Positions 1-42,633 of a stretch of 64,000 nucleotides of DNA are shown one piece after another. The stretch lies in NCBI GenBank assembly GCA_944381575.1, contig CALWLS010000002.1:1-64000 (forward strand). The letters run 5' to 3'. The first letter of the stretch is position 1; each line of letters opens with the position of its first letter. The stretch comes from an uncultured Lachnospiraceae bacterium. GTDB taxonomy: Bacteria > Bacillota > Clostridia > Lachnospirales > Lachnospiraceae. Under the pieces are notes generated by a model. The model worked only from the letters and a program-made list of their open reading frames with translations. It made no database searches and was not told the DNA's origin. The position numbers and the translations under genes were made by a program.

Positions 1-55
1 GATACGGCGACCACCGAGATCTACTCTCTTTCCCTACACGACGCTCTTCCGATCT
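1..55 (+). other. Illumina P5/TruSeq adapter contamination at contig end
   Basis: The first 55 bases match the Illumina universal adapter from GATACGGCGACC to CTCTTCCGATCT with one substitution near base 25. This is library sequence, not genome. It shows that the window starts at a contig edge and that the CRISPR array is cut off there. Confidence 0.98.
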
Positions 56-88
56 CACTGGTTTAAGGTCAGGTGGATAGACCGAGCC
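56..88 (-). CRISPR. Terminal spacer-like segment next to adapter
   Basis: These 33 bases lie between the adapter and the first full repeat, and 33 nt is within the 33-37 nt range of the array's spacers. They are best read as one more spacer, complete or slightly truncated. The next repeat has been replaced by adapter, so the array probably continues beyond the contig. Confidence 0.6.
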
Positions 89-1002
89 ATTTCTATCCAC
101 GCTCTCCATGCGGAGAGCGACTGTGGCACGGTTCTTTTCGCGTCGGAAAATGAGGATTTCTATCCACGCTCTCCATGCGGAGAGCGACCGTGTATCTGCA
201 GAAGAGAAAAGAGTAACGGCAGAATTTCTATCCACGCTCTCCATGCGGAGAGCGACTCTATGGTAGATTTACATTCCTTAATTTCCCTTCTAAATTTCTA
301 TCCACGCTCTCCATGCGGAGAGCGACATAGCACCGCCAAACGGTATAGTTATCCAATGCGTATTTCTATCCACGCTCTCCATGCGGAGAGCGACGCTAAA
401 AACTCAGGGGTGAAAGAGTTACTGGAAATATTTCTATCCACGCTCTCCATGCGGAGAGCGACTCTATGGTAGATTTACATTCCTTAATTTCCCTTCTAAA
501 TTTCTATCCACGCTCTCCATGCGGAGAGCGACATAGCACCGCCAAACGGTATAGTTATCCAATGCGTATTTCTATCCACGCTCTCCATGCGGAGAGCGAC
601 GCTAAAAACTCAGGGGTGAAAGAGTTACTGGAAATATTTCTATCCACGCTCTCCATGCGGAGAGCGACTTATATCCCGCTCGGCATGATCGGCGATCAGA
701 AAATTTCTATCCACGCTCTCCATGCGGAGAGCGACCCGGCAGAAGATAACAAGAACAAAGAAAGGAATATTTCTATCCACGCTCTCCATGCGGAGAGCGA
801 CCATATTTACTGACAAACAGGGCGCTACCGGCACTATTTCTATCCACGCTCTCCATGCGGAGAGCGACGACCATTTCTCTATTATTTCAACTGCTAACTC
901 GGGATTTCTATCCACGCTCTCCATGCGGAGAGCGACATAACACGCCTTATTCCGCTCGGAGCAGAGCTTATTTCTATCCACGCTCTCCATGCGGAGAGCG
1001 AC
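89..1002 (-). CRISPR. Type I-C CRISPR array, 14 repeats and 13 spacers
   Basis: Fourteen identical 33-bp repeats start at 89, 156, 224, 294, 362, 430, 500, 568, 636, 703, 769, 836, 904 and 970. Read on the minus strand the repeat begins GTCGCTCTCC, carries a GCAT-loop hairpin of 8 bp, and ends GTGGATAGAAAT, the form expected for type I-C repeats processed by Cas5. Spacers are 33-37 nt. The array sits just downstream of cas2 with an AT-rich leader at 1003-1203, so transcription runs on the minus strand and the newest spacer is 937-969. There are no repeat variants that would mark the old end, which agrees with truncation at the adapter. Confidence 0.97.
257..668 (-). repeat. Tandem duplication of a three-spacer block inside the array
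   Basis: Positions 257-462 (three spacer-repeat units, 206 bp) are followed directly by an apparently identical copy at 463-668. The duplicated spacers are 257-293/463-499, 327-361/533-567 and 395-429/601-635. Recombination or replication slippage between repeats can do this. An assembly error in a repeat-rich contig end is equally possible. Confidence 0.9.
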
Positions 1003-1203
1003 GGCAAAACCATACAGTTTGATTGCATGATTTTGTGATTTTTTACCATATTATGCAAATTTTAATATGGTAAAATAACTTAATTAATAATTATTTATGC
1101 TAAATTCTATCAGTTTTCTACAAAAATTAATTGACAGAATAGTTTTTGAGCAGTGCGACAGACCCCATAATCTTCTGACAGCTTATGGTTCGCACATTCA
1201 TAA
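1003..1203 (-). promoter_or_regulatory. CRISPR leader
   Basis: This AT-rich non-coding stretch lies between cas2 and the leader-proximal repeat. It should hold the array promoter and the signals for spacer integration. I could not fix a convincing -35/-10 pair by eye. It contains a perfect inverted repeat (annotated separately). Confidence 0.75.
1041..1075. repeat. Perfect 13-bp inverted repeat in the leader
   Basis: TTTTACCATATTA at 1041-1053 and its exact complement at 1063-1075 are separated by 9 bases, about 40 bp from the first repeat. It could be a protein-binding operator or an integration-stimulating leader motif. The role is not shown by the sequence. Confidence 0.8.
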
Positions 1204-1494
1204 CTAAATCAGCAGTATATCATCCTGCATATACTGCGGTGTCCTTCCTATGTGTTCTACTTTTGTTTTGTAATTGTTTCCCAGCTGATAAAACCTTAAA
1301 CTGTCCAGATCTTTATCGATCAGTTTGCTTATTTCTGATTTGAACTGGACATATTGCGCCGCATCCAGCATACATTCAAAAACCGAATTCTGAACTCTCT
1401 GCCCGTAATTGACACATGCCTTCGCGACCTTGCGCAGCCGTTTTCGGCCATCCGCATTTTCAGTATTTACATCATATGTTACAAGTACAAGCAT
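1204..1494 (-). CDS. cas2: CRISPR-associated endonuclease Cas2
   Basis: This 96-residue protein has the Cas2 ferredoxin-like start MLVLVTYDV, with the conserved aspartate at position 8, and normal family length. With Cas1 it forms the integrase that adds spacers at the leader end of the array. It is the last gene of the cas operon, 36 bases after cas1, and the leader starts right behind it. This order matches typical type I-C loci. Confidence 0.95.
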   Translation of the reverse strand: MLVLVTYDVNTENADGRKRLRKVAKACVNYGQRVQNSVFECMLDAAQYVQFKSEISKLIDKDLDSLRFYQLGNNYKTKVEHIGRTPQYMQDDILLI

Positions 1495-1530
1495 TATCTC
1501 ACCGCCTCATATAAACAATCAGTTATATTG

Positions 1531-2562
1531 TTATTTCCAGAAAAACGGAGGATACCTGTCAATATCTCCACGCAGTTTCCTTGCTAATAATAAAGACTGA
1601 ACATATGGTACTAATCCCCATGGTATTTTCTCTCCTAAAAAAGGATGCCGTATGATTTCCTGTTTTCTTTGCTGCCAGGCTTGTAAAAATGCTCTCCTGC
1701 CGTCATCAGTTAGTAAAACTGCTCCGCTTTGCTGCTTTTGACAATGCTTATCGGTTATTACTTTTTGATTGACGCATGTCACCACAAAACGATCTGCATA
1801 TACCGATCTCAGCTCTTCCATCAGATCCAGAGCCAGGCTTGTTCTTCCAGACCTTGCCCTATGCAAAAATCCCACATATGGATCCAGTCCGACTCCCTCC
1901 AGCGCAGCTGCACAGTCGCGCGCCAAGAGCGTATATGCAAAAGATAAGAGCGCATTTATCGGATCCATCGGAGGACGCCGGCTGCGTCCATTAAAAGCAA
2001 ATGACTCCCGCTGCTGCAATATCAGACTGTCAAAGCCGTCAAAGTAAAGCTGCGCGGCCTCTCCCTCAATACCTCTAAGCTCTTCAAGCGTTGCAGCATT
2101 TTCGATCCTTGGCATGGAACCGGCTATCAGACTTGATAATCGCTTTAATTTATCTACCGGCACCCGTTGAGGATGATCTCTTGTCGCACGTTCCAAAACC
2201 CATCTTGAATTATAGACTTTTCCCAAAATGAATCCTTTGGCCAGATCACGGCTTTTTTCCTGATCGTCAGAGCTTCTGTATTGTTCCTGCCTGAGCAATA
2301 CATTTCCTTTATTTTCTCCTGAAACTCTTACAAGAAACTTTCCTCTCGTCGAAAAGAACGCCATATCTATATCTCTTTCAGCACATGCGCCCATCAGTGC
2401 GGGAGAAGCTCCCGCATATGAAAAACATAGTATTGCCTCAAAATTATGCAGCGGAAACCTTGCTGTTTCCTTTTTATCAATATTTACGACAATATTTTCA
2501 ACATCCAATGTAAGATAACTTTCAGCCGTTAATACAAACAATGTGTTCAGCAGCTTCCTCAT
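1531..2562 (-). CDS. cas1: CRISPR-associated integrase Cas1 (type I-C)
   Basis: A 343-residue protein of normal I-C Cas1 length. It has the metal-site pattern: a glutamate in the helical segment around IEGEAAQLYFDGF, a histidine in the GFLHRARSGRTSLALDLMEE block and the aspartate that follows. It catalyses spacer integration with Cas2. The start ATG overlaps the cas4 stop as ATGA (2559-2562), so the two are translationally coupled. Confidence 0.96.
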   Translation of the reverse strand: MRKLLNTLFVLTAESYLTLDVENIVVNIDKKETARFPLHNFEAILCFSYAGASPALMGACAERDIDMAFFSTRGKFLVRVSGENKGNVLLRQEQYRSSDDQEKSRDLAKGFILGKVYNSRWVLERATRDHPQRVPVDKLKRLSSLIAGSMPRIENAATLEELRGIEGEAAQLYFDGFDSLILQQRESFAFNGRSRRPPMDPINALLSFAYTLLARDCAAALEGVGLDPYVGFLHRARSGRTSLALDLMEELRSVYADRFVVTCVNQKVITDKHCQKQQSGAVLLTDDGRRAFLQAWQQRKQEIIRHPFLGEKIPWGLVPYVQSLLLARKLRGDIDRYPPFFWK

Positions 2563-3233
2563 AATGTCCCTGCTCCCGAATCATCATATATATGAGAACT
2601 TATATAATCATTTACATTTATATTGCCGCAAAGCTTTGGCAGACACAGCTCTTTTAATGAGCAGGCATTACAATGCTTTCCCGGTTTGACTTTTGGAGTA
2701 TAACCACGCAGATAATATTCATTCATCTCCTTTGCCATTGCCTGTGCCCTGCTTCTTAATTCATCAGAAATATCAACTGTCTCCCTGCGCCTTGTTTCAG
2801 CATAGTATATGGCTCCCTTAGGTATATCACAAACAAGCATTTCCTCCAAAGCCATTGCCTGAGCACATAATTGCAGCCTGTCCGCATCATTTTGTTTAGG
2901 TGAACCATGCTTGTATTCAACTGGAAATGGGATCCACAGACCATCCCTGCCATTAAGCCTGATTCCATTTTTATCAGCTTTGAATTCCACTACATCGCAT
3001 ATGCCTGACATTTTTAATCTGTGGCTTATTACACGCAGTCCTCTTACGGTAAACAGATCTCCTCTTTTTTCAACGATATTGTCATCATGGCAGCGCTCAT
3101 GCTGGATACGGCCCTCTGCCGTACGCACATCTTCAGCCCATTGGAGTTCAAGATAGGCCAAGGCCCATTGCCTGCGGCAGAAGGAAAAATGCTGTATCCC
3201 CGACATTTGCAGATAATCATCAGTATCAATCAT
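2559..3233 (-). CDS. cas4: CRISPR-associated exonuclease Cas4
   Basis: A RecB-like nuclease with an iron-sulfur cluster. An early cysteine lies in FCRRQWALAYLEL, three cysteines lie in HCNACSLKELC near the C-terminus, and the nuclease core includes FPVEYKHG followed by a QLCAQAMALEEM helix. In type I-C, Cas4 trims prespacers and selects the PAM. A longer reading frame starts at 3266. I chose the internal ATG at 3233 (MIDTDDYLQMSG) because it matches family starts and overlaps the cas7 stop by only 8 bases. Confidence 0.94.
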   Translation of the reverse strand: MIDTDDYLQMSGIQHFSFCRRQWALAYLELQWAEDVRTAEGRIQHERCHDDNIVEKRGDLFTVRGLRVISHRLKMSGICDVVEFKADKNGIRLNGRDGLWIPFPVEYKHGSPKQNDADRLQLCAQAMALEEMLVCDIPKGAIYYAETRRRETVDISDELRSRAQAMAKEMNEYYLRGYTPKVKPGKHCNACSLKELCLPKLCGNINVNDYISSHIYDDSGAGTL

Positions 3234-4080
3234 AGATCTCAACCTTAAGATCAGAAGGACTTTCACAGGTTATTTCATAGTCATCTATATCCCTTGGATT
3301 ATCCACTCCATTTTTCAGACTCACATGCAATAATCTATGAACTTTAGCAGACGGATACTGTCCACTCTTGCAGTTATGTTCCCACCAGTACATCTTTACC
3401 ACTTCCATGCTGCCCTCAGGTCTTGCCGATGAAGCGTCATTTTCAAATATTGTCTTAAGTGCCTCCTTTAACAATTCGGCATCTTCGTCAGAAAATCCGG
3501 TCTTCTCCGCAAGCTGGCAGTTAATGCTTCCGAATGTCGTATACACGCCAAATCCTACTCTATGCTTGGTACCCATTGTATCGCTTGACTTTTTATCGGC
3601 CGGCTCACTGTTTACACTTTTTGTTATCTGAAGGCTGTCAATGATTATAGGATCCACACTGAAAGCCGGGTGTATGGATACAGGACCGCGGACTCCAACG
3701 GAAACACCATTATCATTACCGCCCTTAAATGCAAATACCTGCCCAAAGCTGCGGACGTCCAGCCATTCTTCACATGCTGCCTTTGCGTAGGCCTCCTTAT
3801 CCTTTTTCTTCCCTGCTTCAACAAGCGCCTGGCAGTTTTCTGCTCTTTCCTTTAAACTCCTGAATCCGTCATTTGCCCTGTCATCTGACTGGACAAATAC
3901 CTTAGCTCCAAGATCCATCATACGGTTACGTATTTTCCTTTTCAGGCATACGTCCGATATCTCTCCATTTCCATTATATGTTTCTCTCGGCCTGTTTCCA
4001 TTAAGAGGATCCCCGTTAGGGTTAGCATGCTTAACAGCAATTACCAATGCGAAATCTATCTTTTTACTTAATACAGCCAT
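3226..4080 (-). CDS. cas7: Cascade backbone subunit Cas7 (Csd2)
   Basis: The Csd2-type Cas7 polymerises along crRNA in the type I-C Cascade. The N-terminal KIDFALVIAVKHANPNGDPLNGNRPR block is diagnostic. The frame is open to 4116, but the ATG at 4080 has GGAG at proper distance, and the resulting MAVLSKKIDF start is the family start. The protein is 284 residues, the usual length. It lies 68 bases after cas8c, a larger gap than elsewhere in the operon. Confidence 0.95.
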   Translation of the reverse strand: MAVLSKKIDFALVIAVKHANPNGDPLNGNRPRETYNGNGEISDVCLKRKIRNRMMDLGAKVFVQSDDRANDGFRSLKERAENCQALVEAGKKKDKEAYAKAACEEWLDVRSFGQVFAFKGGNDNGVSVGVRGPVSIHPAFSVDPIIIDSLQITKSVNSEPADKKSSDTMGTKHRVGFGVYTTFGSINCQLAEKTGFSDEDAELLKEALKTIFENDASSARPEGSMEVVKMYWWEHNCKSGQYPSAKVHRLLHVSLKNGVDNPRDIDDYEITCESPSDLKVEIYD

Positions 4081-4148
4081 GTTTTTCTCCTTATTCAAAT
4101 ATGTCATAAATTTCAAAATATTAGTCAGCTCATCATATCTAAAATGCT

Positions 4149-4559
4149 TTACTCTTCATTGTCATTATCATTCTCTTCTTTTGAGTTTGATTTTTTCATA
4201 AATTCTGCCCTTTGGCTTGCATATCCAAGCATATACAATTCGCTCAGAGGTTCATTGTTGAATTCATCTGCCGGAATCCTGTCTATCAGCTTCAGCATCA
4301 GATCATTTGCGTAAGTTGACCTGCCATTTTTTATCAGGTTTTCAAGATAAGGCATCGTCTGTCTTCTAAGTATCTCCAAGGTCTTTGCCGGTCTCTGTGT
4401 AAATGCGACCTCATATCTTAGGGCGTTTGTGGGTCTTTTGTTGCCATCACCGGATGTTTTATTAGAAAAATAATTGGAATCTTCTTCTATCTGATTTAAA
4501 CAGGCGAGTATCCTGCCAAACAGATAACTACGATCTTTACAGATTTCATCAACAGCCAT
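4149..4559 (-). CDS. cas11c: Cascade small subunit Cas11c from an internal start in cas8c
   Basis: In type I-C the small subunit is known to be translated from within cas8c. Here Met512 (ATG at 4559, in frame) is preceded by a perfect AAGGAGG 8 bases upstream. It begins MAVDEICKDRSYLFGRILACL, where known Cas11c products start, just before the YLxGRLxAxL helix. The product is 136 residues ending at the cas8c stop. The internal start is inferred from this signal and the family precedent. Confidence 0.8.
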   Translation of the reverse strand: MAVDEICKDRSYLFGRILACLNQIEEDSNYFSNKTSGDGNKRPTNALRYEVAFTQRPAKTLEILRRQTMPYLENLIKNGRSTYANDLMLKLIDRIPADEFNNEPLSELYMLGYASQRAEFMKKSNSKEENDNDNEE

Positions 4560-6092
4560 ACTGTACTCCTCCTTTTTATTGCGATGATAATATCCGCATA
4601 TTAACGCACATGCGATATTCCTTGTTTTATTTGCTTCCCAGGGTTCCAGGGCGATCCCGTTGGAGGCTCTCCTCACCGCCGATAGCATTATATCCCTCGG
4701 AAATATCTTCATCTCCGAAATACACGGCAATATGCGTTCAATAGTGTTTTGTTTAAGCTTTGCATCGACTTTACTTCCATAAGCCGCTTCCGCTATCTCC
4801 TTTGGCGACGGCGCTCCGTAAAATCTGACTAAAGTATCAAATTTGCCGCTGTTCTTTTCACTCTCTTTTTTTGCAATCAGCTCCCAGGTAAAGTGTTTGT
4901 GCCAGTCCTCAATACTGTCCATAAGCTTTGAGCCTGTAAGCTCTCTGTAGTACCTTATGGACATTCTGCCCGGAGTAGCAGAGTCGAGGATCATAACGGA
5001 AACATAATCTGAATTAACTAATTTGCCCCTATATCCTGCAATCGCCTTATTAAATTCCATGGCAAATGCAGCCCTGGTATCAGCAGACGTTTTCTCTGAT
5101 CTTATAAGAGAAATAATATCGATATCATTATTTTCCCTGATAAGATCCACGGTATCATTCATCAACTGCGGTACCGGTTCATTACCGGCTGACCAGCACA
5201 CAATAGCCTGGTCACCATTTAATGTCCCCTGCTTACCAATCAGCCACCTCAAGGCGCTGTGAGCTTTCTGGGTAGTTTCATATCCAATGGAGAGCGCCTC
5301 TTCAGCATCCTTAAATCTGCCTCTGTAGGTAAAATTAGTATTATCATTACTTGAGATCAGTTTTGCGCGGTCTCCGGAATTTCGTATCTTGTATGGACTC
5401 AAAGCTGAAAGCGACATTTCTTTACCTTGAACATAACATATCCCGGTTTTATTCAAGGTCGAAATATAGTAATCAGTAAAGCTGTCCCATATTTCTTTTT
5501 CATCATGCAGCCTTATATCGCCTACCCTGTACCTGACAAAAGCCTCGAACTGATCACTAAGATTACGGAATATTTCCGGTGCATCCTCTTTGGTCCCTGT
5601 CCACTTTTTTAAAAGCTTTCCATCTTCACCTGCGATCAATATATGGCGCGCTATAAGATCTTCGATCAGTCTGCCTTTTTTCAGGTATTTATATACCGCC
5701 CTGATCTCCCCGTTCCCATATTTGGAATCACACCAGTCCTTAAGCTGGTCCATGTATGCTTCATATTGAGATTCTTTCGGACCGCCGTATTTTTTATAAT
5801 CCCCTGCTATATATTGAAGCTTATCCACCAGCGGGTGAGGCACAGGCCCGGAAGTTCTGGCTGAGGATTCTTCAGTACACGGAATAATGGTAGTCATTTC
5901 GTCTTTGCGAAGTATGGATGCGTAAATCAGATCTCCATCCTCATTCAAATCGATCTGAATATTTACCTTTTGCGTAGTATGCGCTACAGGAAGCAGCATA
6001 GGCGCATCCCAGCCAAAACGGTTATATGTAGGCTTGCCTATTTTGTCTAAATTATTATTGTATGTTTTGAAGGTGCTTTCTATCCAGCTCAT
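4149..6092 (-). CDS. cas8c: Cascade large subunit Cas8c (Csd1)
   Basis: A 647-residue Csd1-family protein. Cas8c recognises the PAM and positions the target for Cas3. The start MSWIESTFKTYNNNLDKIGKP is at ATG 6092, with GAGGAGG 7 bases upstream, overlapping the cas5 stop as ATGA. The C-terminal helical part (from about residue 512) is also the independently translated small subunit Cas11c. The C-terminal tail is very acidic and glutamate/asparagine-rich. Confidence 0.95.
   Translation of the reverse strand: MSWIESTFKTYNNNLDKIGKPTYNRFGWDAPMLLPVAHTTQKVNIQIDLNEDGDLIYASILRKDEMTTIIPCTEESSARTSGPVPHPLVDKLQYIAGDYKKYGGPKESQYEAYMDQLKDWCDSKYGNGEIRAVYKYLKKGRLIEDLIARHILIAGEDGKLLKKWTGTKEDAPEIFRNLSDQFEAFVRYRVGDIRLHDEKEIWDSFTDYYISTLNKTGICYVQGKEMSLSALSPYKIRNSGDRAKLISSNDNTNFTYRGRFKDAEEALSIGYETTQKAHSALRWLIGKQGTLNGDQAIVCWSAGNEPVPQLMNDTVDLIRENNDIDIISLIRSEKTSADTRAAFAMEFNKAIAGYRGKLVNSDYVSVMILDSATPGRMSIRYYRELTGSKLMDSIEDWHKHFTWELIAKKESEKNSGKFDTLVRFYGAPSPKEIAEAAYGSKVDAKLKQNTIERILPCISEMKIFPRDIMLSAVRRASNGIALEPWEANKTRNIACALICGYYHRNKKEEYSMAVDEICKDRSYLFGRILACLNQIEEDSNYFSNKTSGDGNKRPTNALRYEVAFTQRPAKTLEILRRQTMPYLENLIKNGRSTYANDLMLKLIDRIPADEFNNEPLSELYMLGYASQRAEFMKKSNSKEENDNDNEE
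4568..4574 (-). promoter_or_regulatory. Internal Shine-Dalgarno site for cas11c
   Basis: AAGGAGG lies inside cas8c, 8 bases before the in-frame ATG at 4559. It is as good as the strongest start sites in the window, and it decides the cas11c start. Confidence 0.8.
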
Positions 6093-6808
6093 TTGGCAGC
6101 CTCCTCATACAGATCATCACATGTACTCATGTTTTCTCCGAGAATAAATTTCTTCGAGTGCTGTCCGTGGATCGGCCTTACTATCTCACACTTATCCGGC
6201 GGAACAAATTCGATCACGCCGTTTTTCATGACCGGATTCCATAATCTTTCATACATATTTCCGTCTCCGGATTCATCGGCATAGGTTATACCATGGACCA
6301 TAGCTCCAAAAGCTATCGAAGGCGTACCGTCATAGACTCCGGTACCCTCTTCAAAATCGCATGGTTCAACATATCCCTGGCATTCTCTTGTTCCAAGAAA
6401 AATGTCTCTCCGTCCTCCCCGTTCCAGCATGCGCTTTGCAATAAAGTAATGCTTGTTTTCATTTCTGTCAGCTTCAAGATCAGATCTAAGCATATTCCAT
6501 TCAAAATGCGCCTTGACCTTATATGAAACATTGGACAGATACGTATATATCGACAGATCGTTGGTCCCGTCATTATATTTGACAGGCCGCACACCTTTGG
6601 ACTCTGTTTCTATCTCGTTCATTACCCTTATCGCATCGGGTACCCAAATAAACGTCGGCTTCCAGTAGATGCTCTCCAATATACCTTTTATGGCCTGATA
6701 CGTCGGTATAGGATAAGTAAACTTTTCACCTCCGATCCTTGTCAGCGGATCGCTGAATAACGCATATCTGCCCCAGACCCTGAAGGAAATGCTGTTACTG
6801 TATCTCAA
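6089..6808 (-). CDS. cas5c: Cascade subunit and pre-crRNA endonuclease Cas5c
   Basis: Cas5 of type I-C replaces Cas6: it cuts the repeat hairpin and holds the 11-nt 5' handle. The start region RYSNSISFRVWGRYALFSDPLTRIGGEKFTYPIPTYQAIKGILE is the family signature. The frame opens at ATG 6814, but that codon directly abuts AAGGAGG. The TTG at 6808 has a 7-base spacing and gives the usual Cas5c N-terminus, so I prefer TTG. The stop overlaps the cas8c start. Confidence 0.93.
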   Translation of the reverse strand: MRYSNSISFRVWGRYALFSDPLTRIGGEKFTYPIPTYQAIKGILESIYWKPTFIWVPDAIRVMNEIETESKGVRPVKYNDGTNDLSIYTYLSNVSYKVKAHFEWNMLRSDLEADRNENKHYFIAKRMLERGGRRDIFLGTRECQGYVEPCDFEEGTGVYDGTPSIAFGAMVHGITYADESGDGNMYERLWNPVMKNGVIEFVPPDKCEIVRPIHGQHSKKFILGENMSTCDDLYEEAAK

Positions 6809-6854
6809 TATCATCCCTCCTTTAACTGAAATAACTTATTGATTCCTGATATAT

Positions 6855-9260
6855 TTAAATAAAAATTCCTGAACTATTATTAGAGTCAATATTTAAACCA
6901 ATGATCTCATCATAAAATCCTTCTTTTAAAACATACACTGCCCCGTCCAACGCCGTACCGACGGCATTTCCCAATTTTTTGTTAATGGAACTTCCGACGG
7001 ATACAACATACGGCTGGAGCTCACGCAGATCGATATGGTCTTTGTCTGAATAAAGCTTTTCTATAAGTGCTTTGCCCTCCTTATAAGGAACAACGACAGG
7101 AATAGTCTCATCCTCTATCGCTTTAAATTCAGCTTCTGCCGTGCCAAAGGCCTGCCTCATATACATATCTCCCAATTTGGATCCTTCCTTCGTATAGGCC
7201 AAAGCCTTGACTGCTTCCCTGTTTGACGACAACAGCTCTACCATAGTTGTGTCTGATGACAGTTTGTAACACATTTCTATCCTCTGCTTTTCCCCATAAT
7301 AATATTCCTGATAGTATTCACTGATGGATTTAGGAGAAAGAATGTCATCATCCCCGGTCTTTATTATGGTCAGCTCCGCAGCCTTGGCCCCGTCATTGAT
7401 CTCAGGAAGATTTGACTGATTCTCATCCTTATCTTTTATTATATATACATATCCTATGGCTTTCTCCCCATTTCTATTACATCTTCCTGCTGCCTGGGCA
7501 ATACTTGAAAGTCCTGCCAGGCTTCTTACTACACACTCAAAGCTGATATCCACTCCGGCCTCGATCAGCTGAGTGCTCACACATATTATTTTTTCATGAT
7601 TTTCAAGACATGCACGTATATTATCCAGGATCTCGTTTCTGTGCCTTGGGCACAGATTGGTCGTAAGACAGAACAGCTTTACATCGCCGGTGATCCGTGA
7701 TGATAAACTATTCACCAGCCTGTTGACAGCCCTTTTAGTATTAAGAATAACCATAACATTATTGTTATCATCCATAAGTCCTGTTACAAACTCCGCAATT
7801 TCCTCAGATGTTTGTTCTCCCAGAGAAAGTCTGTCCGTTATGATCCGTGTACGCTTAAAAGCACTGAATATTCCGTCTGTGTCTTTAACGATATCTGTCG
7901 GCCTGCTGAAAATGACAGGATAAGCCGTTTTGTCAAGCGCCGGCTGTGTAGCTGTACACATGATCACTGTACATCCGAATACGTATGCTAAAACATTTAC
8001 TGCCATATTCAGCAGACATGTATCCTTACGCGGCAGCGCCTGTATTTCATCAAACAGCAGTATTGAACCGGCAAGGGCGGACATTCGTCTGACATTTTGT
8101 CTCGGTGCCGCAAACAGTGTATTAAGCATTTGCACCATAGTAGTACATATAACCGGCGTTCCCTGCCATCTGGCACTTGATGACAGCCATCTCTCATTTC
8201 CCTCATTATCTTCATTATCTATCACAACGTCTGAATGATGTTCCAGAACATATTCATCTCTTCCTACAGCCTTGCGTATCACCTCCGCATTCTGTCTGGT
8301 GATGGATTTGTATGGAGAAAAATAGAAAATGTGCTGAGCATTATGCCTCTTTGCCATTTCGACACAGAACCTTAATCCCGACAGAGTCTTTCCTCCGCCC
8401 GTAGGCACATACAGTCTGTATATCCCAGGTTCCATATTTTTACCGGCTTCATGACATTGAACTGATATGGTTTTTCTGACATTATCAATATCATATCTAT
8501 AAGGCAGATGAGCCACATATGATTCGACATTTTCAGATATTTTTCTCCAAATACTCTCACGGGACTTTTCATTTTCAATATGCAAAAGTCCTGTTTGTTT
8601 CACGAAACAGGCCGTGTCAGTCCAATCGGCATCTATGAGGGCGCTGAAAATAAATCTCTGAATGAGACCTAATCCAAAACAGACTACGTCCCCGTTTTTT
8701 TCGGCATTCGCTCCTTCAGGCATTGTCTTTGCAAGCCTGCCAGATATTAGATCCTTTATCTCTTCCGCTGATTTCCTTATAAGCTCCTTAAGTTCATCTT
8801 CATCACAGCATTCATTAAAGAAATTTTTGACGCATTCATCATATAATTTATTTGCCTGGTCTGAATACATCCTTTCGAGCCATGGTAATGATCCATCCAA
8901 TGATATGTAATCGCATCGTCCTGAGTGGTGGCAACCTATGGCCAGTGAGATCATCTGAGCCATTATTGTATATACCTGACCCTGATCCCTACAATTTTCC
9001 CATATCCATCTCATTCCCGCTGAGGCATGATTGATCTTTTCCGGTGTGCTGAGCTTAATATGCTCCTGATTCCTATTGCATGCCTTACCCATATCATGGA
9101 TTTTGCCGGCTAAATAGCCGGTATACTTAAGTCCGATCTGTGCACATGCCTCAGAACACAGCTCGGCGACATTATCAGAGTGCTCTTTCAGGGACTGATA
9201 TATTATTTCGCCATTTACGGATAGAAGTTTGTGCGCGATCAATTTTCTGCTGCTGTTCAA
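6855..9260 (-). CDS. cas3: CRISPR-associated helicase-nuclease Cas3
   Basis: An 801-residue fused HD nuclease and SF2 helicase that unwinds and degrades Cascade-marked DNA. HD-domain residues include H27 and the H55-D56 pair, followed by a GCHHSG motif. The helicase part has Walker A PTGGGKT, a DEIQ box (LFDEIQALP), STQLIEAGVDISF and the QAAGRCNRNGE arginine finger. The start is TTG at 9260 with AAAAGGA upstream; no ATG fits. It is the first gene of the operon. Confidence 0.96.
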   Translation of the reverse strand: MNSSRKLIAHKLLSVNGEIIYQSLKEHSDNVAELCSEACAQIGLKYTGYLAGKIHDMGKACNRNQEHIKLSTPEKINHASAGMRWIWENCRDQGQVYTIMAQMISLAIGCHHSGRCDYISLDGSLPWLERMYSDQANKLYDECVKNFFNECCDEDELKELIRKSAEEIKDLISGRLAKTMPEGANAEKNGDVVCFGLGLIQRFIFSALIDADWTDTACFVKQTGLLHIENEKSRESIWRKISENVESYVAHLPYRYDIDNVRKTISVQCHEAGKNMEPGIYRLYVPTGGGKTLSGLRFCVEMAKRHNAQHIFYFSPYKSITRQNAEVIRKAVGRDEYVLEHHSDVVIDNEDNEGNERWLSSSARWQGTPVICTTMVQMLNTLFAAPRQNVRRMSALAGSILLFDEIQALPRKDTCLLNMAVNVLAYVFGCTVIMCTATQPALDKTAYPVIFSRPTDIVKDTDGIFSAFKRTRIITDRLSLGEQTSEEIAEFVTGLMDDNNNVMVILNTKRAVNRLVNSLSSRITGDVKLFCLTTNLCPRHRNEILDNIRACLENHEKIICVSTQLIEAGVDISFECVVRSLAGLSSIAQAAGRCNRNGEKAIGYVYIIKDKDENQSNLPEINDGAKAAELTIIKTGDDDILSPKSISEYYQEYYYGEKQRIEMCYKLSSDTTMVELLSSNREAVKALAYTKEGSKLGDMYMRQAFGTAEAEFKAIEDETIPVVVPYKEGKALIEKLYSDKDHIDLRELQPYVVSVGSSINKKLGNAVGTALDGAVYVLKEGFYDEIIGLNIDSNNSSGIFI

Positions 9261-9299
9261 TTTATTGTTCCTTTTCTTGCATAAATAACTTTTTGCTTT

Positions 9300-9314
9300 A
9301 ATTCATTGGTTTCA
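9300..9314 (+). promoter_or_regulatory. Protospacer-like target of the upstream ncRNA guide in the cas3 promoter
   Basis: The 15 bases AATTCATTGGTTTCA equal the first 15 guide bases of the ncRNA at 9417-9431 except position 6. They cover the predicted cas transcription start. A full 33-35 bp protospacer would also cover the -10 element. The preceding triplet is TTT, one base from the I-C PAM consensus TTC. Confidence 0.75.
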
Positions 9315-9319
9315 ATTTA

Positions 9320-9348
9320 ATATTATATTTTATGCTATAGCTTGTCAA
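9320..9348 (-). promoter_or_regulatory. cas operon promoter
   Basis: On the minus strand a consensus -35 TTGACA (9348-9343) is followed 17 bases later by TAATAT (9325-9320), or 15 bases later by TATAAT (9327-9322). Transcription would start near 9313. The -35 overlaps that of the divergent ncRNA promoter. Confidence 0.75.
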
Positions 9349-9370
9349 GCTTTTTCAAAATATATATAAT
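9342..9370 (+). promoter_or_regulatory. Promoter of the CreR-like ncRNA
   Basis: TTGTCA (9342-9347), a 17-base spacer and a perfect TATAAT (9365-9370) form a strong sigma-A promoter on the plus strand, pointing away from cas3. The predicted start is near 9377. Confidence 0.8.
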
Positions 9371-9376
9371 ACCTAT

Positions 9377-9483
9377 GCCATCATTTTATACTCAGTAATT
9401 TGATGTGGATAGAAATAATTCTTTGGTTTCAGAAGCGAAAAAGGAGCCTGCGCATTATTTTTTAATGCATAAGCTCCTTTTTT
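9377..9483 (+). ncRNA. CreR-like Cas-regulating RNA with crRNA handle and cas-promoter guide
   Basis: A transcript of about 107 nt is predicted between a consensus promoter and an intrinsic terminator. Positions 9405-9416 (GTGGATAGAAAT) equal the last 12 bases of the CRISPR repeat and include the whole 11-nt handle that Cas5c leaves on crRNAs. The next 15 bases match the cas3 promoter at 9300-9314 except guide position 6, which type I Cascade flips out of pairing. No intact repeat hairpin precedes the handle; only a weak ATCA/TGAT stem is seen. By analogy with Cas-regulating RNAs (CreR), Cascade loaded with this RNA would occupy and repress the cas promoter. The short match would avoid cleavage. 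Function is inferred; expression is not shown. Confidence 0.75.
9438..9483. terminator. Bidirectional intrinsic terminator
   Basis: An imperfect 15-bp stem, GGAGC...GCATTA paired with TAATGC...GCTCC, is flanked by A-rich and T-rich tracts. It can end the ncRNA on the plus strand and the toxin-antitoxin operon on the minus strand. Confidence 0.85.
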
Positions 9484-9523
9484 CTTCTAAACGATATATC
9501 TTCAAACAATTCTTTTTATTTAT

Positions 9524-9895
9524 TTACGATACATTTTTTTCAGTTTTGGATTCAAGGGGAACTACAGCTAAGGTTTTTCCAAGAGGAATAAGAAGCCTGA
9601 TCAGTGTATCAATCTGCGGGTTTGATATTCCTTTTTCCATACGAGCTATAACAGGCTGCTTTACACCGCTGAGTTCCTCTAATTTTTTCTGAGTAATCCC
9701 CTTTTCATGTCTTGCTTTTATAAGCTCTCCAATAAGCGCAACTCTTAAATCACTCTCGGCTCTTTCATCGACAGTCATAAGAGATTCAATATAATCTAAT
9801 GCATTTTCTCCAATAGCATCATCACCACGTTCATGTAAATCATTTAGTGCTTCTTTGGCTTTAGCTAAAGCTTCTTTACACTCCCCATTCCTCAT
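9524..9895 (-). CDS. higA: HigA-type antitoxin, XRE-family HTH
   Basis: A protein of about 123 residues. An N-terminal helical segment is followed by an XRE helix-turn-helix, readable as RHEKGITQKKLEELSGVKQPVIARMEKGISNPQIDTLIRLL. It should neutralise the neighbouring toxin and repress the operon. A GTG at 9904 directly touches AGGAGG, so the ATG at 9895, 8 bases further, is the likely start. It begins 5 bases after the toxin stop. A fragment of the same gene recurs at 12088-12296. Confidence 0.88.
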   Translation of the reverse strand: MRNGECKEALAKAKEALNDLHERGDDAIGENALDYIESLMTVDERAESDLRVALIGELIKARHEKGITQKKLEELSGVKQPVIARMEKGISNPQIDTLIRLLIPLGKTLAVVPLESKTEKNVS

Positions 9896-9900
9896 AATAT

Positions 9901-10254
9901 TCACCTCCTGTCCTCTTTATATTTGCTAAAGTTTCTTTTTGCAGCATCAATTTCTTTGACTGGAGTTTTTTGTGTCTTTTTTATAAAATGATGTAATAAG
10001 ACAAATTTATCTCCATCAAATGAGGCAAAAAGTATTCTATTCCTTATAGGACGCAGCTCCCAGATTTCATTGTCCAAATGCTTTATATACGGCTCTCCAA
10101 TGCTTGTACCATAAATAGATAATATTTTTATATAATCAGCTATTTTATTAAAATTAATTCTACTGTCCTTATCCTTCTTTTTAGATAATTCTTGAATAAA
10201 TTCCTTTACAGGTTCTCTTCCATTATTATCCCTAAAGAATAGGATTTCATACAT
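9901..10254 (-). CDS. higB: HigB/RelE-like toxin (phage Gp49-like family)
   Basis: A 117-residue protein of the Gp49-like/HigB family of ribosome-dependent mRNA interferases. The typical core is seen: the [10 protein letters not shown] start, [20 protein letters not shown], and [24 protein letters not shown]. Toxin-first order with an XRE antitoxin behind it is the HigBA arrangement. It is transcribed from its own promoter at 10288-10316. Confidence 0.88.
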
Positions 10255-12087: not shown

Positions 12088-12296
12088 TTACGATACATTT
12101 TTTTCAGTTTTGGATTCAAGGGGAACTACAGCTAAGGTTTTTCCAAGAGGAATAAGAATCTTGATCAGTGTATCAATCTGCGGGTTTGATATTCCTTTTT
12201 CCATACAAGCTATAACAGGCTGCTTTACACCGCTGAGTTCCTCTAACTTTTTCTGAGTAATCCCTTTTTCATGTCTTGCTTTTACAAGCTCTCCAA
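12088..12296 (-). pseudogene. 5'-truncated copy of the higA antitoxin
   Basis: This stretch is nearly identical to the 3' part of higA (9524-9732), with scattered substitutions. It breaks at GCTCTCCAA (12288-12296). That 9-mer occurs at 9724-9732 inside higA and again at 10329-10337 upstream of higB. The copy therefore looks like a deletion between these two 9-mers that removed the promoter, the toxin and the antitoxin start. Confidence 0.88.
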
Positions 12297-30822: not shown

Positions 30823-31377
30823 CTAATTAAATCCTCTGGCTACAAATACTGTAGCTCCTGTTTTTTCTGCAGCCTTTATTCCAACATCTGAGTCCTCAAA
30901 TATTATACAATCTTTAGGCGCTACATTGTATCTTATCATAGCTTTTAAAAAACCTTCTGGATCAGGTTTAGGTTTTGTAATATCCTCGTGTGTAAGTATT
31001 AGATCAAATATATCTACTAATCTAAATTCATTGAGGATATCATAAGTATTCTGTTTTGAAGCTGTTGTTACCAACGCTGCTTTACAATCTTTTCCACGGT
31101 CTATAATTATATCTACAAGTGCCTGATTAACACGACCAAAATTCAAGTACTTACTGTAGGCTTCTTTTTTTTTTCTATGCATATCAAGAAGTTTTCTTTC
31201 ATCATTTGTAGTTATCTGTGGTAGAAAATCGGTATAATGTTTTCCATTACAGAACTCACAATAATATTTATAATCCATGTCATATCCATATTGTTCTAAA
31301 GCTTCTTTATAAGCTCTGTAATTAATTTCTTTGGTATCGAAGAGTGTTCCGTCTAGATCTATCATCATTAACTTCAT
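30823..31377 (-). CDS. HAD-family phosphatase
   Basis: A 184-residue HAD-IA hydrolase. Motif I is DLDGTLFDT (D7, D9), motif II is LVTTASK, the motif III lysine is in KPKPDPEGF, and motif IV is IIFEDSDVGIKAA, with a small helical cap. It probably dephosphorylates a phosphorylated small molecule. It is the last gene of the module with the two nucleotidyltransferases and a kinase, one base after the preceding gene, suggesting a role in making an activated polysaccharide substituent. Confidence 0.88.
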   Translation of the reverse strand: MKLMMIDLDGTLFDTKEINYRAYKEALEQYGYDMDYKYYCEFCNGKHYTDFLPQITTNDERKLLDMHRKKKEAYSKYLNFGRVNQALVDIIIDRGKDCKAALVTTASKQNTYDILNEFRLVDIFDLILTHEDITKPKPDPEGFLKAMIRYNVAPKDCIIFEDSDVGIKAAEKTGATVFVARGFN

Positions 31378-41888: not shown

Positions 41889-42633
41889 AATTTACATTCC
41901 CCTTGTATCATATAGTCATAGCCACTCTTAACTGATTCAATAGTTTAAACTTTGGTGTTAAAAATACTATAAACTGATTCAAATTGCCTATCACTATTGA
42001 GATTTCAAAATAGCTGCCCCTCCCAACATCTTTGTATCAGTGTTTGTCGATGCGATAGCATACAATGGTTTATGTAAGCGAGGTCACATCTGCTGAAGGT
42101 TCTGCAGAACATTTCAGCACAGATATTTCTTAAGACAGCCCCCTTTTATGTTCTATATTGGTGTCGATATCACTAAGTATAAGCATGGCTGCTACAGCTT
42201 TGGCTCTAATAATAGAGACCATTACCCTCCACTTGTCATATATAACAATTCGGCTATTTTAAATGGTTCATGTCATAAAACACTCCACCCCATTACTTTA
42301 AATCTTGTAGATATTAATACCATTCGTTTATCTAACGATTTATTCAAACTACTTGCTTTCATTATCTGCAGTGGCTCAAAGCTCTGCCTTTTGCATTCAT
42401 TTTAGCAATGGTCTACCCGACACTATTATTTACTCCAAAATTTTAACATGTATTACTTACTATCATTAAAAAGGTTCTCGTGTTTTCTCATATTCAATTT
42501 ATCAGAGGATTTTTTACTATTTTCTTGGTTCTATTTTTGGTTCTTTATCATTTCTTCATTCATTCCCGCTGTGTTCACTCAGCTTAAAGGTACTAATTTC
42601 CAAATTTGCAAAACTTGTATAATTTCAATCCAC
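41889..42633. other. Gap between operon parts with an IS110-type transposase relic
   Basis: On the plus strand 42148-42240 reads MFYIGVDITKYKHGCYSFGSNN, the N-terminus of an IS110-family transposase (RuvC-like DEDD start). The rest is decayed, with no catalytic part left. The remaining sequence is AT-rich with no supported gene. A terminator or promoter may be hidden here, but none is clear. Confidence 0.6.

Follow-up and report, generated by a model that had tools for sequence, protein, structure and literature searches.

A candidate Cas-regulating RNA with a guide to the cas3 promoter of a type I-C CRISPR-Cas system, and its near-copy in a prophage

The subject of this work is a small-RNA gene that lies upstream of cas3 in a 64,000-nucleotide stretch of DNA (hereafter, the window) from an uncultured Lachnospiraceae bacterium (GenBank assembly GCA_944381575.1, contig CALWLS010000002.1, positions 1 to 64,000 of the forward strand), where a type I-C system of clustered regularly interspaced short palindromic repeats (CRISPR) and cas genes is encoded. 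We hold with high confidence, from comparative sequence analysis, that this interval encodes a Cas-regulating RNA (CreR) of the type I-C system, and the RNA probably acts as a brake on the system's own cas genes. The support for this reading comes from the design of the element and from the covariation of its parts among related loci, not from conservation of the window's own sequence. The same genome carries a near-copy of the RNA gene in a prophage.

A first-pass annotation, made from the letters of the window, had described the interval as a consensus promoter, a 12-nt repeat end, a 15-nt guide matching the cas3 promoter region at all positions except the sixth, and a terminator, and these elements were all recovered. 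The predicted promoter agrees with the consensus at 11 of 12 positions, and the number of promoter-like sites in 9200-9560 is three, versus 1.9 +/- 1.3 in shuffled sequences, so that the site count by itself is no proof of a promoter. The 12-mer GTGGATAGAAAT is present as an exact copy at 9405-9416 and is elsewhere in the window restricted to the 14 array repeats; across the genome there are 48 copies in array repeats and two others, one in the RNA gene and one in the prophage. The element is, therefore, a degenerate repeat outside the array that keeps the 5' handle of the local CRISPR, as CreR RNAs do. A simple terminator scan found no terminator, though the fold shows a long hairpin with a T run at 9437-9483, and the RNA as a whole (9377-9488) folds at -34.6 kcal/mol (z = -4.75), with equally stable structures in 0 of 200 shuffles. 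The annotation erred upstream of the handle, where it had the repeat hairpin missing and expected an unusual 5' maturation. A mini-hairpin, CATCA...TGATG, directly precedes the handle at 9379-9405, in the same position relative to it as the stem of the array repeat, whose GC-rich stem is replaced by a different and weaker one. With this hairpin present, 5' maturation need not be unusual, and about 11 of 14 such elements are alike in this respect. A solitary GTGGATTGAAAT, with one mismatch to the handle, was also seen at window 42622-42633.

The guide at 9417-9431 (AATTCTTTGGTTTCA) and the sequence at 9300-9314 (AATTCATTGGTTTCA) differ by a single mismatch, at guide position 6, and this is the best non-self match of the guide in the window (score 13; the runner-up scores 9). 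On the side of the target where a protospacer-adjacent motif (PAM) is expected stands TTT, and the type I-C PAMs of Neisseria lactamica are TTT and TTC (PMC10865793). Limited complementarity of this kind, to a cas promoter and with a valid PAM alongside, is characteristic of CreR. Given a predicted cas3 promoter at 9348-9320, the cas3 start site would fall within the target, and in the N. lactamica system a CRISPR interference spacer placed across the -10 element of a promoter was employed to repress the gene (PMC10865793). The -35 boxes of the predicted cas3 promoter and of the RNA's own promoter overlap, and the two transcripts may, therefore, compete for one polymerase site.

The wider comparison covered 76 upstream regions of cas3 genes like that of the window (window included), most of them made up of 80 nt of the gene and as much as 620 nt upstream of it; loci, genomes and contigs are designated here by L, G and C numbers. 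The regions came from searches in the family, order and class and from one named contig: one cas3 search supplied 30 loci and 8 that were fetched, among the matches listed, a cas3 search of genome contigs gave one usable locus, and L057, L058 and L061 were dropped as duplicates of L052, L053 and L055. Fewer than 300 nt lie upstream in six regions (L017, L037, L038, L048, L050 and L084), and the subtype of the 76 loci was assigned by likeness to the window's cas3, not locus by locus. A locus qualified if it had a handle with at most two mismatches from TGGATWGAAAY and, in its own cas promoter region, a TTN-PAM site that matched the 17 nt after the handle with at most four mismatches, no position being favoured. 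Twelve of the 76 did so (L010, which is the window, L012, L014, L021, L022, L039, L040, L046, L052, L067, L068 and L069), with TTC as the PAM in seven and TTT in five, and the comparison of handle and co-varying guide and target that the first-pass annotation had proposed supports the CreR interpretation.

Of the 27 mismatches at these 12 loci, guide position 12 accounted for nine, position 6 for eight, position 17 for four, position 16 for two, and positions 14, 2, 3 and 4 for one each, so that 17 of the 27 fell at positions 6 and 12 in a search without preference for either. When positions 6, 12 and 18 were ignored, 12 TTN loci scored at least 11, versus 3 or 4 for the other five phases of six. 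With 300 permuted handles, the number of TTN loci with at most 3 mismatches in 17 averaged 0.21 with a maximum of 4 (observed, 11 of 76), and with any PAM it averaged 1.21 with a maximum of 8 (observed, 13 loci). Targets overlapped the best nearby cas-sense promoter in 10 of 13 cases; random placement gave a mean of 5.6 and reached at least 10 in 2 of 200 trials. The conserved handle, the PAM-flanked promoter match and the mismatches at positions 6 and 12 are what Cascade-guided autorepression predicts. The elements also share their build: most have a terminator-like hairpin after about 20 nt of guide, guide length and limited match are similar across unrelated guides, and, read by eye, a short stem that runs up to the handle is present in about 11 of 14 (less clear in L012 and L052) and not visible in L014, L016 and L039. 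The counts exclude L016, whose handle is CGGATCGAAAA and which resembles a divergent homologue of L014. At L039 1285-1320 (genome G214), two handle-like sequences stand in tandem ahead of the guide.

Apart from the related pair L067/L068, the guides of the 12 loci are wholly different and each fits its own promoter region, and it is this covariation of guide and target between systems that is expected of CreR. At L040, in another family, where the nearest cas3 is 49% identical, the same geometry (handle at about -180 and target at about -60 relative to the start of the cas3 match) is found with a different guide that fits its own promoter. Covariation is also visible within the genus of G908, G1064, G1087 and G1088, in all of which cas3 adjoins the element: at guide position 11, G1087 has G where the other three have A, the target has changed likewise, and guide positions 6 and 12 drift. 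G1087 and G1088 were left out of the element frequency because they were found via the element itself. A search of 25 genomes of the window's genus produced one other (G1101, 1 of 24) with a type I-C-like cas3 match at E <= 1e-70, and upstream of that cas3 lie a hairpin, the handle TGAGTTGAAAT and a guide with an 11-nt match, preceded by TTT, in the cas3 promoter region. The array repeat of G1101 ends in TGAGTTGAAAC, and the two unusual array handles, of the window and of G1101, are mirrored by correspondingly unusual element handles. Element and array handles are identical in 7 of the 13 genomes compared (the window's, G445, G908, G1064, G1088, G318 and G171), a comparison that excludes G384 (weak element) and G202, G133 and G214 (no array found). 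Most of these genomes have GC-rich stems in their arrays, to which the stems of the elements bear no relation in sequence.

The near-copy of the RNA gene came to light when the window's own genome (G000) was searched with 9290-9500, which gave a second site at C5:134075-134152, 85% identical over 78 nt. The copy has a predicted promoter of its own (TTGTAA-17-TATAAT), a hairpin, the same handle and the guide AGTTCTTTGGTTTCAGAGACG, and it closes with a terminator hairpin unrelated to that of the window; the stems of the two copies differ internally and both still pair. Compared with the guide of the window, that of the copy has one change within the match, at position 2; against the cas3 target, its first 15 positions include two mismatches, at 2 and 6, and the one at position 2 would form a G-T wobble. 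The copy has endolysin, integrase, anti-repressor, tail-, head-, portal- and terminase-like genes on its left and a D-Ala-D-Ala ligase gene on its right. Two identical 27-bp att repeats, one at C5:52187-52213 next to an integrase gene and the other at C5:134253-134279, delimit a prophage of about 82 kb with the copy inside, about 70-80 bp from the right end. The ligase region was seen in 22 of the 25 genomes of the genus, and the prophage copy was found only in that of the window. The prophage (C5:52187-134279) has two integrase genes, as well as transposase- and HNH-endonuclease-like genes, and may on account of the former be a composite of two prophages.

That relatives of this prophage have been CRISPR targets follows from one of the 43 distinct host spacers, which matches C5:133942-133975 in the prophage at 29/34 positions; the copy starts about 110 bp away. 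Shuffled spacers reached at most 0.71 of their length in the same scan, which covered C5:85000-134300, and the match is clear; another spacer, against the endolysin gene (26/36, or 0.72), is borderline, and the left part of the prophage gave no spacer match above 0.70. No exact self-targeting of the prophage by host spacers was found, 29/34 being the best match, and with its PAM of TAC and mismatches at positions 1 and 2 this spacer is probably inactive against the present prophage. A second copy was sought in 15 other genomes with such elements and none was seen, G1087 giving no match and G354 one weak 26-nt match. In IMG/VR, a pattern scan returned no match to the element; 25 pattern matches, a number near a rough chance estimate, were set aside when the promoter-hairpin-guide-terminator layout was not seen in them, a further one lay within a coding frame, and TGGATWGAAAN was absent from six loci with relatives of the prophage endolysin. 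The INPHARED phages gave weak or no matches, the best being two Listeria phage records (E 3e-4) in which the match is confined to the terminator and the end of the guide; the record that was inspected has a plain terminator and no handle. Plasmids gave weak matches to the element only.

In the mechanism that we propose, transcription would begin at 9377, Cas5c would cut 3' of the mini-hairpin to leave the 11-nt handle, and Cascade would assemble around the short guide, the terminator hairpin forming the 3' end. Through the match of about 15 nt, Cascade would then cover the cas3 start site and -10, block the polymerase and hold the cas operon down. The match ends at about 15 nt and, by analogy with CreA and CreR, would be too short to license cleavage by Cas3, so that the promoter would be bound without being destroyed. 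Repression would ease when CRISPR RNAs (crRNAs) from the array compete for Cascade, or when anti-CRISPRs disable it. The prophage copy would provide further repression on phage entry or in the lysogenic state, and would rival crRNAs for Cascade. Its most likely effect is a stronger brake, together with sequestration of Cascade, to the benefit of the phage. Whether a temperate phage copied the host CreR, such that the host's Cascade is made to repress the type I-C cas operon (in effect, an RNA anti-CRISPR acting by guided repression), is a question on which our judgement is evenly divided.

There are observations that weigh against these interpretations. About 62 of the 76 loci have no recognisable element (six of the 76 have fewer than 300 nt upstream), the PAM of L063, which has a strong pair with a 19-nt match, is CTC, and the targets of L014, L012 and L046 miss the top-scoring predicted promoter. 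A looser null, with 100 permuted handles and a score of at least 11, had a mean of 1.02 and a maximum of 11, versus 13 observed; it included near-identical patterns and terminator hairpins, both of which the 300-permutation null excludes, and the top row for L039 in the looser scan was itself a terminator hairpin, the real L039 pair coming from other scans. Element and array handles differ in 6 of the 13 genomes compared, by one base in five (G1101, G1087, G657, G354 and G729) and by two in one (G085). No sequence homologue of the window RNA was found in 24 congeners, and 298 other genomes of the family gave only one weak, probably chance match, in G287 (L005), where a handle but no matching guide was seen; G287 is unlisted among the cas3 matches, and the match was taken as chance. 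The predicted fold of the free RNA pairs the last five bases of the handle with part of the guide, a pairing that Cascade loading would need to open. For the prophage copy, the guide scores 10 on the cas3 target and 9 on the next window site, and as the match alone would not stand out, the argument is one of homology to the host copy; the phage anti-CRISPR interpretation, moreover, has a single instance.

Could the element be an accident of composition, with a handle-like 12-mer standing by an AT-rich promoter to which the next 15 nt are similar by coincidence? The base composition is indeed AT-rich here, and short matches do arise, yet the exact handle is found at only two non-array sites in 2 Mb, one in the element and the other in its homologue, and the pattern, with the PAM and the mismatch phase that would be expected, recurs in 12 of the 76 loci. 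In our view the covariation in relatives refutes chance, the probability of which we regard as practically nil. It is also very improbable that the element is a decaying orphan CRISPR unit, in which a functionless relic repeat is followed by a spacer accidentally acquired from the cas promoter. A stem without array sequence and a single repeat with no second one would suit such a relic, but the stem has been rebuilt, not lost, and is paired in the window and prophage copies as well as in about 11 of 14 elements, the unit has its own predicted promoter and terminator, and similar guide length and limited match recur across unrelated guides.

The prophage copy, at the prophage end and adjoining the endolysin gene, is a solitary repeat-like unit with its own predicted promoter, as are the RNA anti-CRISPRs (Racr), and a type I-C example is known in RacrIC1, beside AcrIC5 in a Bifidobacterium prophage (PMC10651486). 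The RNA could, on this precedent, be mainly a decoy or competitor for Cas proteins, with the promoter match secondary. A decoy has no need of a guide, however, and a guide fitted to the local cas promoter, PAM included, is found in 12 of the 76 loci; the window copy, too, belongs to the host, which leaves this explanation distinctly unlikely. A last possibility is posed by the pair of HigB/Gp49-like toxin and HTH antitoxin genes that directly adjoins the RNA gene (window 9524-10254; Gp49 and HTH_3 models), which a CreA-type antitoxin RNA might repress. A toxin promoter was not found as a target in scans that covered the window and C5:65001-145000; the best match in the window is the cas3 promoter (13), and the next (9), at 31325 and 34882, lie far from the pair, making an antitoxin role exceedingly improbable. 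The CreR interpretation, in which the RNA is a brake on its own cas genes, is thus the one that we prefer.

A complete type I-C operon, followed by the CRISPR array, occupies the minus strand of the window (Table 1). The array appears to continue at the end of contig C12, which has the window's outermost spacer too, and in C12 (L156, G000:C12:46001-52521) about 1.5 kb of other sequence separates two array repeats, with further degenerate repeats beyond. Array spacers 6-8 recur in the same order as 9-11 (window ~220-640), either by duplication or as an assembly artefact. The contig starts inside the array, and we take window 1-52 to resemble sequencing-adapter sequence in reverse orientation. 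Of the antitoxin gene mentioned above, 209 nt of the end are found again 2.6 kb away (window 12088-12296) at 97% identity.

Table 1. Features of the type I-C locus, the small-RNA gene and its prophage near-copy (window coordinates unless a contig is given)
Feature	Position	Strand	Basis or remark
CRISPR array, 14 repeats GTCGCTCTCCGCATGGAGAGCGTGGATAGAAAT, repeat end TGGATAGAAAT	85..1009	-	
cas2	1204-1494	-	NCBIfam model above cut-off
cas1c	1531-2562	-	NCBIfam model above cut-off
cas4	2559-3266	-	NCBIfam model above cut-off
cas7	3226-4116	-	NCBIfam model above cut-off
cas8c	4149-6092	-	NCBIfam model above cut-off
cas5c	6089-6814	-	NCBIfam model above cut-off
Operon minus cas3 (cas5c to cas2)	1204..6814	-	
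cas3	6855..9260	-	HD + helicase models; TTG start; first gene of cas operon
PAM-side TTT of target	9297..9299	+	sequence
Guide target AATTCATTGGTTTCA at putative cas3 transcription start	9300..9314	+	14/15 identical to guide
Predicted cas3 promoter TTGACA-17-TAATAT	9320..9348	-	promoter scan
Predicted small-RNA promoter TTGTCA-17-TATAAT	9342..9370	+	11/12 to consensus
CreR-like RNA gene	9377..9483	+	start placed from promoter
Degenerate repeat hairpin CATCA...TGATG, ends exactly at handle	9379..9405	+	fold
11-nt crRNA 5' handle TGGATAGAAAT	9406..9416	+	identical to local array repeat end
21-nt guide AATTCTTTGGTTTCAGAAGCG	9417..9437	+	3' limit placed at start of terminator stem
Intrinsic-terminator-like hairpin + T run, in second repeat's place	9438..9483	+	fold, sequence
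Prophage near-copy of RNA	G000:C5:134076-134186 (L002 1502-1612)		

If the CreR interpretation is correct, RNA-guided self-regulation extends to type I-C systems, and does so in a compact, one-hairpin form that would be missed by repeat finders that accept only close matches to the array repeat. The freedom with which guide positions 6 and 12 evolve would record, in nature, the way in which DNA is read by type I-C Cascade, and the prophage copy would represent a phage that takes over a host regulator rather than using a protein to block the effector. The window and prophage RNAs make a directly testable host/phage pair.

Standalone-repeat RNAs (crlRNAs) have reportedly been predicted in many type I systems by Shmakov et al. 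in 2023, with guides against cas promoters and in some cases in phages, and phage mini-arrays are said to have been proposed there as repressors of cas or effector expression. CreR RNAs are known in types I-B, I-E and V-A (PMC13131331), are placed in type I and V-A by another review (PMC12737573), and have had their function described in a further one (PMC12948488). Type I-C is among the commonest CRISPR subtypes (PMC7684278), and a type I-C CreR was not found in the literature searched, which is not the entire literature. By its design the window RNA is a probable CreR, in type I-C and with a prophage paralogue: like the known ones it is crRNA-like, lies beside cas genes and has a short guide partly complementary to a cas promoter, and unlike them it belongs to a type I-C system, with Cas5c instead of Cas6, consists of one pseudo-repeat closed by a terminator, and has a second copy in a prophage. 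Type I-C Cas5d leaves a handle of 11 nt (PMC5965380), and ectopic repeats that have degenerated are said to become more stable and more specific (PMC9458426). In type I-E Cascade every sixth guide base is flipped out (PMC5965380), and the same six-base phase appears in the mismatches of these type I-C guides. CreA of Haloarcula hispanica likewise has one degenerate repeat, a guide, and a terminator replacing the second repeat, and in the two-repeat CreA of the related H. hubeiense the pairing, next to a TTC PAM, involves guide bases 1-5 and 7-11, but the CreA of CreTA targets a toxin promoter, whereas the window RNA targets that of cas3 (PMC8501985). The prophage copy, for its part, resembles the Racr, RacrIC1 included, in being a prophage-encoded small RNA that mimics a CRISPR repeat, and where RacrIF1 draws Cas proteins into an aberrant complex, the copy described here also retains a guide to the host cas promoter (PMC10651486).
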